From Nonomuraea coxensis DSM 45129 (GTDB lineage Bacteria; Actinomycetota; Actinomycetes; Streptosporangiales; Streptosporangiaceae), in the NCBI RefSeq assembly GCF_019397265.1, contig NZ_CP068985.1, positions 3,638,501 to 3,702,500 on the forward strand: a stretch of DNA of 64,000 nt, in the 5' to 3' direction. Positions 44,032-47,572 of this stretch are shown here, piece by piece. A program made the translations under genes and the position numbers. Numbering within the stretch: the first letter of the stretch is position 1; each line of letters opens with the position of its first letter. The notes below the pieces were generated by a model. The model saw nothing but the letters and a program-made list of their open reading frames with translations. It had not been told where the DNA came from and ran no database searches.

Positions 44032-44499
44032 TCAGCCCTTGCCCGCGGCGTTGACGATGCGGGTGGTCGAGCGGCCGGGGATGGCCTCCATCTCCCAGCA
44101 GTCGGCGCCCAGGATCGCCGCCGCCGCGGCGCGCGCCCCGGCGTGCGGGTCACCCGCGGTGTGGGCCAGGGCGCGCGGGCTCATGGGGGCGAGCAGGTCG
44201 ATGTAGTCCTCCGGGCCGTGCGCCTCGGGCGGCCCGGTCACGATGAAGACGCCCGCGACGAACCGGAGCGCGGCCAGCACCTCGGCGCGCTCGGCGGCGG
44301 GGTTGAGCGGGCGGGTCGGCCCCTTCCACGCGCGTACGCGGGGGTCGTCCTCGACGCCGACGACGAGCGGCAGCCCGCGCGACGCCACGGCGCCGAGATA
44401 GCGCACGTGGCCCACGTGCAGGATGTCGAAGACCCCGGTGACCACCGCCGCCCCCGTCCGGTCGTACGGCTGCACCCAGACGGCCTCCAGGCTGCTCAC
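44032..44499 (-). CDS. Cytidylyltransferase-like nucleotidyltransferase
   Basis: A 155-residue protein with the HxGH nucleotidyl-transfer motif, AAVVTGVFDILHVGHVRYLG. PLVVGVEDDPRVRAWKGPTR follows, and the C-terminal ISSTxx-equivalent motif is PGRSTTRIVNAAGKG. The fold is that of RfaE/TagD-type enzymes, which activate phospho-sugars or glycerol-3-phosphate with CTP or ATP. It lies next to, and convergent with, the glycerophosphodiesterase that yields glycerol-3-phosphate, but any functional link is inference. The start ATG 44499 has AAGGAGG upstream. Confidence 0.87.
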   Translation of the reverse strand: MSSLEAVWVQPYDRTGAAVVTGVFDILHVGHVRYLGAVASRGLPLVVGVEDDPRVRAWKGPTRPLNPAAERAEVLAALRFVAGVFIVTGPPEAHGPEDYIDLLAPMSPRALAHTAGDPHAGARAAAAAILGADCWEMEAIPGRSTTRIVNAAGKG

Positions 44500-45210: not shown

Positions 45211-46182
45211 TCACACGTCGAGGCGGCACAGTCCTTCGGCGAGCGCCTTCGTGGTGAGCCTGGTGCGGCTGTCGCAGCCCAGCTTGGCGAAGATGTGCTC
45301 CAGGTGCGTGGTCACCGTGCGCACACTGAGCACCAGCGCGGCGGCGATCTGCGGGTTGGAGTCGCCCGCCGCCACCCGGGTCAGCACGTCCACCTCGCGG
45401 CCGGTCAGCTCGTACGGCAACGCGCACGGCCGCTCCCCGGCCACCGCCCCCTGGAGCGCCCCCTGGAACCCGACGCCGGCCCGCAGCAGCCGCAGCTCGT
45501 GCCAGCGCCCGCCGCCGTCGAGCCACAGGCCGTGGCGGCTCAGCTCCCGCGAGTCGATGAACGCGCGCGCGTAGGCCGCCACGGCCGGATCGTCCCAGAG
45601 CGCCGGCGACGGCTCGCGCCCCGGCACCTCGCGCCGGACGCCGAGCCGGTCGAACGCCACCGCCCGGAAGCCGGGCGGCAGGCCGACCGGGTCGATCACG
45701 CAGCGGCTCAGGTCGGTGAGGTGCGCGAGCAGCGGGCTGACGGCCGCCACCACGGCCCCCGTCCGCCCGGGGAACGTCTCGCGGGTGGCCAGGTGCAGCA
45801 GCCCCGTGTAGCGGCCCTCCGGCAGGAACAGCGGCGCGGTCAGGCCCGCCCGCCAGCCGTAGGGGGCGAGGTGGCGGCGGAAGTAACGCTCGGTGCAGGG
45901 CTCGGGCATCGGCACGGGGGAGCGGGTGGCGCGGGCGCGGCGGTAGGCCTCCAGCCCGGCGTACTCCTCGGCGGCGTCGCGGTCGATCTGCCGGTGGCCG
46001 TCGGAGACGACGCTGTGATGGCGCCCCGTGGCGGGGTCGAAGGCGACGAACTCGTAGGCGTCGAGCGGAACCACCCTGCGCAGCGCGGCCATCGCCCCGT
46101 GCGCGTCGCCGCCGCCCGCCACCTGGTAGCCGACCTCCGCGAACGCCCGGAGATGGCGGACGTCCAGGGTGATCTCGGCCAC
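45211..46182 (-). CDS. LuxR-type regulator with GAF-like sensor region
   Basis: A 323-residue protein. The N-terminal 230 residues resemble GAF/autoinducer-type sensing domains: YEFVAFDPATGRHHSVVSDG, RAGLTAPLFLPEGRYTGLLH and HLATRETFPGRTGAVVAAVS. The C-terminal LuxR HTH is LTGREVDVLTRVAAGDSNPQ, IAAALVLSVRTVTTHLEHIF, AKLGCDSRT. No receiver domain is present, so it responds to a ligand rather than to phosphorylation. It is divergent from the threonyl-tRNA synthetase-like gene, with an AT-rich gap holding both promoters. Target genes are unknown. Confidence 0.87.
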   Translation of the reverse strand: MAEITLDVRHLRAFAEVGYQVAGGGDAHGAMAALRRVVPLDAYEFVAFDPATGRHHSVVSDGHRQIDRDAAEEYAGLEAYRRARATRSPVPMPEPCTERYFRRHLAPYGWRAGLTAPLFLPEGRYTGLLHLATRETFPGRTGAVVAAVSPLLAHLTDLSRCVIDPVGLPPGFRAVAFDRLGVRREVPGREPSPALWDDPAVAAYARAFIDSRELSRHGLWLDGGGRWHELRLLRAGVGFQGALQGAVAGERPCALPYELTGREVDVLTRVAAGDSNPQIAAALVLSVRTVTTHLEHIFAKLGCDSRTRLTTKALAEGLCRLDV

Positions 46183-46262
46183 CGCCCCTTTATATCATTC
46201 GCCAATCCTGGAGATCCTGTTGAAGATTATTTTCAGCGGACTCGGGATGTTACGGTGGATCC

Positions 46263-46319
46263 GTGCAGCGCGCTCACGTCCTCGCCACGACGACGCCGGA
46301 CCTCGTCCCGGCGCGCTGA
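46263..46319 (+). CDS. Leader peptide with three consecutive Thr codons
   Basis: GTG 46263 opens an 18-codon frame, VQRAHVLATTTPDLVPAR, ending in TGA 46317-46319, 66 bases upstream of the threonyl-tRNA synthetase-like gene. The codons 46287-46295 are ACG ACG ACG (Thr-Thr-Thr). A leader rich in the cognate amino acid followed by competing hairpins is the classical design of ribosome-mediated attenuation. There is a weak GGTGG site five bases before the start; a leaderless transcript is also conceivable. A possible promoter begins with TTGAAG at 46220. Confidence 0.6.
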   Translation: MQRAHVLATTTPDLVPAR

Positions 46320-46378
46320 CTCCATGCTCCCGGGCGAACGCCCGGGACCGCTGGTCGTTCGCCCTTTCCCGCGAAAGG
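46305..46378 (+). promoter_or_regulatory. Putative transcription attenuator of the ThrRS-like gene
   Basis: Four segments can pair in alternative ways. A, GTCCCGG at 46305-46311, pairs with CCGGGAC at 46342-46348. B, TCCCGGGCG at 46328-46336, pairs perfectly with C, CGCCCGGGA at 46339-46347. GGGCGAACG (46332-46340) pairs perfectly with D, CGTTCGCCC (46356-46364), which is followed by TTT like a terminator. B:C and B:D exclude each other. A further hairpin, CCTTTC-CCGC-GAAAGG (46363-46378), hides the ribosome site. Stalling at the Thr codons should favour B:C and read-through. Confidence 0.55.
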
Positions 46379-46384
46379 ATGATC

Positions 46385-47572
46385 ATGAACGACCACCGCA
46401 GACTCGGCCGAGAGCTCGGCATCTTCGACACCGACCCGCTCATCGGCTCCGGCCTGCCCTACTGGCTGCCCGCCGGGGCCGCCCTGCGCAAGGCCGTCGA
46501 GGACTACGTCCACGAACTCGAACGCCGCAACGGCTACCGGCACGTCAACTCGCCCGTCCTCGGCAAACGCGAGCTCTACGAGCGATCCGGCCACTGGGCC
46601 CACTACGCCGAGGACATGTTCCCGCCGATGAACGTCGGCGGCGAGGAGTTCGTGCTGCGCCCCAGCCTGTGCCCGCACCACGCCATCGTCTACCGCTCAC
46701 ACCAGCGCAGCCACCGCGACCTGCCGCTGCGCCTGGCCGAACTGGGCGGCATGTACCGCTCCGAGCCGTCCGGCGTGCTCGGCGGCCTCAGCCGGGTGCG
46801 CGCCATCCAGCTCAACGACGGCCACGTCTTCTGCCCGCCCGAGCACGCCGCCGCCGAGGTGTCGGCCGCGCTCGACCTCATCGGGCAGGCCCACGCCAGG
46901 CTCGGCGTCGGCGCCGTCCGCTACCGGCTGTCGCTGCGCGGCGAGGGCGGCAAGTACGTCGACGACCCCGCCATGTGGGCCCGCTCCGAGGCCCTGCTGC
47001 GCGAGGTCCTGGCCGGACGCGGCCAGGACTACGACGAGGAGCCCGGCGAGGGCGCCTTCTACGGCCCGAAGATCGACATCCAGATCACCGACCCGGCCGG
47101 CCGCGAGAGCACCCTGTCCACCGTCCAGGTCGACCTCTACCAGCCCGCCCGCTTCGACCTCACCTACGTGAGCCCCGAAGGCCCGCGACGGCCCGTCATG
47201 GTGCACCGCAGCGTCGTCGGCGGCCTCGAACGCCTGGCCGCGCACCTGATCGAGGTGCACGCGGGGGCGTTCCCCGCCTGGCTCGCCCCGGTGCAGGCCG
47301 TGGTGCTGCCGCTGTCGGACGCCGAGCTGCCCGCCGCCGCCGAGCTGCTGCGCCGCTGCCTGGCCGCCGGGCTGCGGGCCGAGCTGGCGCCCGCCGACCG
47401 GGGCAGCCTCGGGGCCAGGATCAGGGCGCACCGGCTGGTGCCGTACCAGCTCGTGGTGGGGCCGCGCGAGGCGGCGGCCGGCGGCGCGTCCGTACGGCTG
47501 CGCGACGGCGGCCAGGCGGGGGACGTGCCGGTCGAACGGCTCGCCGCCGAGGCCCGGCCGTTCGTCGGATGA
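46385..47572 (+). CDS. thrS: Threonyl-tRNA synthetase-like protein lacking TGS and editing domains
   Basis: About 395 residues, little more than the catalytic core and anticodon-binding domain of ThrRS (usual length about 640-690). It has motif 1 (RNGYRHVNSPVLGKRELYER), motif 2 (LRLAELGGMYRSEPSGVLGG) and motif 3 (MVHRSVVGGLERLAAHLIEV). The zinc ligands of ThrRS are all kept: Cys96 in SLCPHH, His147 in NDGHVFC and His274 in MVHRS. Their spacing matches E. coli ThrRS Cys334/His385/His511. The enzyme should therefore charge tRNA-Thr without proofreading; a drug-resistant duplicate or a specialised role is possible. The Thr-codon leader upstream supports a response to charged tRNA-Thr. ATG 46385 is chosen with AAAGGA upstream. 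Confidence 0.85.
   Translation: MNDHRRLGRELGIFDTDPLIGSGLPYWLPAGAALRKAVEDYVHELERRNGYRHVNSPVLGKRELYERSGHWAHYAEDMFPPMNVGGEEFVLRPSLCPHHAIVYRSHQRSHRDLPLRLAELGGMYRSEPSGVLGGLSRVRAIQLNDGHVFCPPEHAAAEVSAALDLIGQAHARLGVGAVRYRLSLRGEGGKYVDDPAMWARSEALLREVLAGRGQDYDEEPGEGAFYGPKIDIQITDPAGRESTLSTVQVDLYQPARFDLTYVSPEGPRRPVMVHRSVVGGLERLAAHLIEVHAGAFPAWLAPVQAVVLPLSDAELPAAAELLRRCLAAGLRAELAPADRGSLGARIRAHRLVPYQLVVGPREAAAGGASVRLRDGGQAGDVPVERLAAEARPFVG

Follow-up and report, generated by a model that had tools for sequence, protein, structure and literature searches.

Arrangement of the short thrS locus

Located on the plus strand of the window, which is the whole 64,000-nt stretch of the Nonomuraea coxensis DSM 45129 chromosome that was analyzed, is a gene encoding a short threonyl-tRNA synthetase (ThrRS). 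The gene is preceded by a small leader ORF with a run of Thr codons and by three RNA helices, designated P1, P2 and P3, the last of which contains the ribosome-binding site of the synthetase gene (Table 1). The leader itself holds a local hairpin, Hp, and a segment designated region 2. A preliminary description of this DNA had reported an 18-codon frame with three consecutive ACG codons, and this frame was found exactly where it had been placed. The frame also lies directly upstream of the gene, as described, but the gap between its stop and the ATG at 46385 is 65 nt and not 66.

Table 1 Features of the leader and synthetase gene in the window
Feature	Position	Strand	Details
-10 hexamer TACGGT	46251-46256	+	6 nt upstream of the leader GTG
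Leader ORF, 18 codons, MQRAHVLATTTPDLVPAR	46263-46319	+	GTG start at 46263; TGA at 46317-46319
Three Thr codons, ACG ACG ACG	46287-46295	+	proposed sensor
Local leader hairpin Hp	46294-46313	+	CGCCGG 46294-46299 with CCGGCG 46308-46313
Region 2, GTCCCGGCGCGC	46305-46316	+	part of the leader that can pair with P1
P1, attenuator hairpin	46328-46347	+	TCCCGGGC 46328-46335 with GCCCGGGA 46340-46347; no U-tract in the window
P2 5' arm, GGGCGAACG	46332-46340	+	overlaps P1 arm and loop
P2 3' arm, CGTTCGCCC	46356-46364	+	overlaps P3 5' arm
P3 outer 5' arm, GGTCGTT	46353-46359	+	pairs with 46388-46394, just past the start codon
P3 inner hairpin, CCTTTC/GAAAGG	46363-46378	+	46363-46368 with 46373-46378; buries the ribosome-binding site
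Ribosome-binding site, GAAAGGA	46373-46379	+	5 nt before ATG 46385
Short auxiliary threonyl-tRNA synthetase, 395 aa	46385-47572	+	catalytic core and anticodon domain

The synthetase is a short, threonine-poor second ThrRS

The product of 46385-47572 matched the NCBIfam thrS model TIGR00418 with 407.1 bits, above the cutoff of 383.65, over profile positions 171-559 only, and Pfam assigned PF00587 and PF03129 and no other domains. Because the alignment covers these positions alone and Pfam found only the core and anticodon domains, the short ThrRS is without the N-terminal TGS/editing region. A full-length thrS paralogue (G000:C1:5927765-5928934) is 41% identical to it. The nearest named relative, N. 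wenchangensis, has a short ThrRS homologue that is 95% identical, and the short form was found in 46 of 54 Nonomuraea genomes (E<=1e-100), in 62 of the 394 genomes of a class-wide sample representing 17 of 137 genera (E<=1e-107), and in 96 of 199 Streptomyces genomes. The N-terminal tail of the short ThrRS, from the ribosome site to the DHR motif, is His/Asp-rich and very variable in length among four members (L122, L123, L146 and L209). Two diverged members (L174 and L175, 56-57% identical) are preceded by the leaders MAHHQHLTTTPGTLTRRGCGVT and MARLHHLTTTPGTVTRRAAA, in which the Thr run and the -10 element are retained and the hairpins differ.

The short form contains little threonine. Thr content averaged 1.24% in Nonomuraea short ThrRS (range 0.5-2.6, n = 33) compared to 3.92% in the cores of Nonomuraea housekeeping ThrRS (3.4-4.4, n = 12), with no overlap between the two ranges, and 70 short ThrRS from all genera had a mean of 1.36% (range 0.5-3.9%). 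This poverty in threonine suggests selection for synthesis of the enzyme under threonine-tRNA shortage. ACG stood at 2.6% within the short ThrRS genes. That ACG is a rare codon genome-wide was considered and rejected, as it accounted for 43 of 101 Thr codons in seven hand-picked neighboring genes. Borrelidin resistance of the short ThrRS likewise found no support. The position equivalent to L489 of E. coli ThrRS, which we take to be a borrelidin-resistance position, is Q in the short and housekeeping ThrRS of the window strain alike, and the short ThrRS family is variable at this position.

A leader ORF with a Thr run precedes the short ThrRS across genera

Loci were gathered by way of the synthetase and never by way of the leader. 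A script, which favored candidates with a -10 element and TTTP where several ORFs were possible, found a Thr-run leader in 158 of 163 loci (some repeated between collections), corresponding to 136 distinct leaders. The remaining five loci were inspected by hand: two do carry the leader (L135 and L144), two are cut by contig ends (L147 and L152), and one (L105) has no leader, its diverged short ThrRS-like protein continuing the frame of coding sequence further upstream. The leader was therefore present before the short ThrRS in 160 of the 161 loci with enough upstream sequence. These counts leave aside eight loci whose synthetase is of the full-length type (L110-L117, 40-42% identity), 13 of the 46 genomes from the genus, L211-L219, and 69 of 98 Streptomyces matches.

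The Thr codons proved to be conserved in homologous loci, 135 of the 136 distinct leaders reading TTTP and one TSTP. The run took the form ACGACGACG in 117 leaders, ACCACGACG in 18 and ACGTCGACG in one; start codons were ATG (128) or GTG (8), and the peptides were 16-26 residues long. Nonomuraea leaders are mostly of the form MQRA..TTTPDxVPAR, those of Streptomyces mostly ..TTTP[DE]xVPAR and those of Micromonospora mostly MRSAVVTTTPGIPGAPH. Among 29 further Streptomyces loci, taken from the 98 matches, 28 had the leader, with TTP in 27 and TTAP in one (L195); the other locus (L200) had lost the leader and retained the hairpin. An ORF about 1.8 kb from the leader in the window (44032-44499, minus strand) and an ORF close upstream of the leader, on the leader's (plus) strand, in seven Nonomuraea loci (L058, L062-L065, L067 and L069) share almost the same C-terminus (..IPGRSTTRIVNAA..).

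In its exact form the leader motif is a single-copy element. The pattern ACSACGACGCCGGANNNNNTCCCGGYGCGCTGA was present in one copy each in 51 of the 394 class-level genomes, and the reversed pattern in none of these 51. All but one of the 51 hold the short ThrRS, the exception being a match 164 nt from a contig start (G286). None of 12 Nonomuraea housekeeping thrS loci carried the leader motif, and the single-copy occurrence led us to reject a wider regulon.

The leader transcript is probably leaderless

A TANNNT element precedes the leader start codon in all 136 distinct leaders (gaps of 4-9 nt allowed), at a distance of 7 nt in 92 and 6 nt in 44, compared to a background of 10 in 5620 positions further upstream. 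With this constant 6-7 nt spacing the transcript is probably leaderless, its start being predicted from the position of the -10 element; in the window the element lies directly upstream of 46263 and places the predicted start at or beside that position. RNA-seq of S. lividans gave the same -10 consensus, on average 6.3 nt from the transcription start, and showed thrL to be leaderless (PMC8079986). A sigma-70-like promoter match at 46226-46253 is on the minus strand, as is a divergent LuxR-family gene (45211-46182). Because this match overlaps the leader promoter region, the leader and the LuxR-family gene may compete for polymerase.

The S. coelicolor gene thrS2 is listed as WblC-activated (PMC7157823, Table 1). 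Exact GAAAWY boxes were identified upstream of the -10 element in 42 of the 136 leaders, all 26-28 nt away, which is the place expected for WblC. The window has no exact GAAAWY box of the WblC/WhiB7 type (3 nt upstream of the -35), and only 5 of 43 Nonomuraea sequences have one, though the leader is equally conserved there.

P1, P2 and P3 form a chain of competing helices

The two mutually exclusive hairpins reported in the preliminary description (46328-46347 and 46332-46364) were confirmed at those positions, and the third hairpin said to hide the ribosome site is present as P3. Folding of the region was more stable than that of shuffled sequences (z = -3.91 for 46255-46400 and -3.56 for 46320-46402). 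The stretch from P1 to the gene gave a mean z of -2.81 in Nonomuraea and only -1.21 outside this genus.

P1, P2 and the inner part of P3 covary in homologues. In the unselected 136 rows, 0.828 of P1 cells were paired compared to a shuffled mean of 0.749 (74 distinct rows), and 0.877 of P2 cells compared to 0.828 (66 distinct rows), with none of 500 shuffles as good in either case. A 16-row alignment, picked from 25 stretches with nine omitted for a cleaner alignment (including four from Micromonospora), may flatter both helices through this selection; in it P1 had a covariation score of 0.252 compared to 0.135 when shuffled (0/500), 90.2% of its cells were paired and 15 were changed on both sides (slid controls, 22-67%), and P2 was 98.6% paired compared to 40-58% in slid controls, with both sides changed in eight cells. 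An alignment of P3 across all clades hardly surpassed shuffles, if at all (28/500 and 167/500), and for this reason its test was restricted to 24 of the 43 Nonomuraea sequences. In these rows the inner P3 showed changes on both sides at three of six pairs; 99.4% of the cells of the outer arm were paired, mostly invariant and partly coding; and P3 as a whole was 93.6% paired compared to 92.0% in shuffles (1/500), the best slid control reaching 66.7%. An outer leader helix (46266-46273 with 46311-46318) scored 0.798 compared to 0.767 (4/500), which is too weak to build on.

Since the 3' arm of P2 is also the 5' arm of P3, and the 5' arm of P2 consists of a P1 arm and the P1 loop, the three helices form a chain in which P1 permits P3, and P2 prevents both P1 and P3. 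These results indicated that the Thr-codon leader and its helix arrangement are real and are conserved far beyond chance.

Past the Thr run the leader is constrained as RNA

Leaders of the VPAR type use nearly fixed codons, with CCG in 108 of 108, GCG in 106 of 108 and CGC in 108 of 108, compared to 65.5%, 40.2% and 46.9% of the respective codon families in the synthetase genes. Three loci (L132, L167 and L192) retained the RNA CCCGGCGCGCTGAC and read it in another frame. As judged from codon choice and reading frame, the constraint past the Thr run acts on the RNA and not on the peptide. Hp is nearly invariant, with four distinct forms in 136 rows.

The preliminary description had proposed that 46305-46311 (GTCCCGG) captures the 3' arm of P1, and this segment is indeed complementary to 46342-46348. 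With a simulated ribosome at the second Thr codon, region 2 paired with the 5' half of P1 before the 3' arm exists in all 136 leaders (at least 4 expected pairs). Pairing between leader and P1 is nearly invariant across rows, and shuffled leaders paired as well with P1 in 15% (Nonomuraea) and 28% (others) of trials. As the margin over shuffles is modest, this step rests mainly on the invariance. Once both P1 arms exist, P1 is favored over pairing with the leader.

Transcriptional and translational features differ between clades

P1 outside Nonomuraea is terminator-like (GAAGCCCCGGGGC-GAGT-GCCCCGGGGCTTC), with a mean length of 12.7 pairs compared to 8.5 in Nonomuraea. At least five T in the 8 nt at the stem end were found in 8 of 93 non-Nonomuraea sequences, and a CTTCG tail in 37 of 93. 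Neither the window nor any of the 43 Nonomuraea sequences had a U-tract after P1 (0-3 T in 8 nt). The 8 nt after P2 hold 2-5 T in Nonomuraea (five T in 5 of 43) and 0-4 T outside it, where 84 of 93 have 0-2, and a terminator scan of the window returned no terminator-like site in the leader region. The P2 helix (46332-46364) had been put forward as a terminator, which these counts bear out weakly at best; outside Nonomuraea the terminator-like element is P1, and there P2 as a general terminator was rejected on its T-poor flank.

One feature of erm-like translational attenuators is present, in that the ribosome site lies within the covarying inner P3 and the 3' arm of P2 overlaps the 5' arm of P3. 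Control in Nonomuraea is probably translational. In Streptomyces, Micromonospora and others with a long, terminator-like P1, transcription termination is probably added to it.

A threonine attenuator is proposed for the short ThrRS

We consider it likely that the leader ORF, itself probably leaderless, acts as a threonine attenuator that controls the short ThrRS by way of charged tRNA-Thr. Ribosome-mediated control through the Thr codons had been suggested in the preliminary description, and it is supported by the conserved Thr codons, the covarying stems and the adjacent -10 element. As the -10 position implies, RNA polymerase would start at the leader start codon or beside it, and the first ribosome would begin at the 5' end. 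When Thr-tRNA is ample, the ribosome would reach the stop and leave, allowing P1 to fold and excluding P2, and the synthetase gene would then have its ribosome site buried in P3 (off). A shortage of charged tRNA-Thr would make the ribosome stall on the ACG codons, where it, given the usual ribosome footprint, would cover the 5' arm of Hp and free region 2, which Hp may hold unless a ribosome is stalled at the Thr codons. The freed region 2 would pair with the 5' half of the nascent P1 and, in the window, may also take the P1 3' arm. With P1 prevented, P2 could form ahead of transcription of the P3 3' arm, leaving the ribosome site exposed for long enough to allow translation initiation (on). 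We infer leader translation, stalling, the threonine response, its sign and the order of folding from the sequence; that starvation is the on state is suggested by the gene product and the logic of the helices.

Folding calculations gave evidence both for and against this switch. With the P1 3' arm blocked and P3 incomplete, the mean pair probability of P2 was 0.88 in the 43 Nonomuraea sequences and 0.47 in the 93 others, exceeding 0.5 in 43 of 43 and 48 of 93, respectively. At equilibrium, the same block raised accessibility of the ribosome site by more than 0.1 in only 1 of 43 Nonomuraea sequences and 14 of 93 others, and lowered it in 4 of the 93. P3 thus outcompetes P2 at equilibrium, so that the switch must be kinetic, or the blocking constraint is too crude.

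The distance between the leader stop codon and the helices bears on the sign of control. Measured from the stop codon (46319), P1 begins 8 nt and P2 12 nt downstream in the window, and across the 43 Nonomuraea sequences these distances are 6-9 and 11-14 nt, so a ribosome that lingers at the stop could interfere with P1 while leaving P2 unaffected. Outside Nonomuraea P1 starts at least 11 nt after the stop in 92 of 93 sequences, and a ribosome that has finished the leader should therefore not obstruct most of P1. In Nonomuraea, a ribosome at the stop codon would reverse the sign, with the gene on in plenty, provided that P2 opens the ribosome site; we regard this as the less likely outcome. Spacing and folding energies could be compatible with either sign in Nonomuraea, including the window.

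Alternative explanations

Applied to Nonomuraea, the original scheme makes P2 a weak terminator and P1 its antiterminator, such that occupancy of the stop codon by a ribosome keeps P1 from forming, P2 then forms and ends transcription, and a ribosome stalled at the Thr codons lets P1 form and the gene be read. The Nonomuraea spacing of both helices from the stop fits this scheme, as do the 2-5 T that follow P2, yet five T were reached in only 5 of 43 sequences and the scan of the region was without a terminator-like site. Outside the genus P2 mostly has no T-rich tail and P1 is the terminator-like element; moreover, formation of P1 would leave the ribosome site concealed in P3, and we consider the scheme unlikely. 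Transcription attenuation alone, with P1 as an intrinsic terminator in all members and P2 and P3 incidental, would suit the longer P1 outside Nonomuraea and the T-rich or CTTCG ends that some of these hairpins have. This explanation seems quite unlikely to us, as P2 and the inner P3 covary, no Nonomuraea P1 hairpin carries a U-tract, and the 3' arm of P2 lies beyond P1, so that P2 cannot act before a P1 terminator.

Control might instead operate without a P1/P2/P3 switch that reads charged tRNA-Thr. T-box leaders that bind tRNA, and feedback by the synthetase on an operator, are known routes of synthetase control in bacteria. Either seems most improbable here: a search of 45900-46700 and of four relatives against Rfam was without a match, transcription from the leader codon would leave no long 5' region, and the Thr run would be explained by neither. 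Hardly more credible is a functional microprotein with RNA pairing as a secondary matter. The C-terminal TTTP[DE]xVPAR is highly conserved, but the conserved residues track fixed codons, the length varies from 16 to 26 residues, the Micromonospora ends differ (GIPGAPH), and the three frame-shifted loci keep the RNA. The leader could also sense translation-blocking antibiotics, through stalled or slowed ribosomes, as part of a WblC/WhiB7 response and not through charged tRNA-Thr. Activation of thrS2 by WblC in S. coelicolor (PMC7157823) and the 42 uniformly placed GAAAWY boxes speak for such a role. We nevertheless judge it highly unlikely, since RNA pairing accounts less well for the Thr codons than for any other conserved codons and the regulated gene encodes a ThrRS, since the exact box is absent from the window and from all but 5 of 43 Nonomuraea sequences while the leader is conserved regardless, and since the box works on initiation and not on the leader. 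The threonine attenuator remains our preferred reading.

Relation to known attenuators and biological significance

The preliminary description held that such control of ThrRS genes is rarely described in actinobacteria, which is correct, but the same leader has already been published for Streptomyces lividans TK24. There, thrL (SLIV_19412) lies upstream of thrS (SLIV_19410), is leaderless and encodes MKRVRPFLETTPGFVPAR; one hairpin without a U-rich stretch was reported, and termination was called unclear (PMC8079986). Like the window leader, whose start is predicted, thrL is a leaderless Thr leader that ends in VPAR before a threonine-tRNA ligase, and unlike it, thrL has two Thr codons and was reported from a single species (PMC8079986). 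The parts of that paper that deal with thrL make no mention of a P2/P3 switch, conservation, a WblC box or the form of the enzyme (PMC8079986). The thrL end pattern matched two of 392 Streptomyces genomes (L209 and L210), and both have exactly MKRVRPFLETTPGFVPAR before a short ThrRS, so the S. lividans thrL belongs to the same family. Given these identical leaders, SLIV_19410 is presumably of the short form as well. In the open-licence literature searched, Thr-leader control of an actinomycete ThrRS gene is published for this one species only.

Attenuators of related kinds have been described in actinobacteria. S. coelicolor trpRS1 is said, in work attributed to Vecchione and Sello (2010, J Bacteriol), to have a transcriptional attenuator with Trp leader codons. 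Like the short ThrRS, trpRS1 is an auxiliary synthetase under ribosome-mediated attenuation with cognate codons in the leader peptide; it differs in that it concerns tryptophan, is transcriptional and encodes a drug-resistant enzyme, resistance being without support for the short ThrRS. Mycobacteria reportedly have leaderless polycysteine leader ORFs (attributed to Canestrari, 2020), which resemble the ThrRS leader in being leaderless and in carrying a run of the sensed codon, and differ in that this codon is for cysteine. Streptomyces trpS and leuS have attenuators with cognate-codon leader peptides and competing hairpins (Seliverstov 2005; PMC1262725), and so share leader codons, competing hairpins and actinobacterial synthetase targets with the leader described here. 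For threonine, the same survey of actinobacteria found no conserved RNA structures (PMC1262725). The LEU element before leuA also combines leader codons with structures that reach the ribosome site, yet its Leu codons pair directly with the ribosome site and it involves a pseudoknot (PMC1262725). A threonine attenuator of an auxiliary ThrRS belongs to a kind already known, of which one member is in print; the P1/P2/P3 chain with its covariation, the breadth of occurrence of the leader and the threonine-poor enzyme are new within the scope of our literature search.

Taken together, the leader may operate as a three-way kinetic RNA switch, with the P1 arm and loop as a covarying decoy that draws off the strand by which the ribosome site is hidden, and with a single leaderless Thr leader governing translation as well as completion of the transcript. 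Such a switch would drive an editing-free, threonine-depleted emergency ThrRS suited to a near absence of Thr-tRNA, and its promoter would be gated by WblC in many genera. We offer this combined reading tentatively, as a possibility that may well not hold in every part. For the threonine attenuator as such, expression of the spare ThrRS should follow the charging of Thr-tRNA. Through the attenuator, a spare ThrRS that lacks editing would be tied to translation stress, and the leader RNA could report tRNA-Thr charging in antibiotic-producing bacteria.
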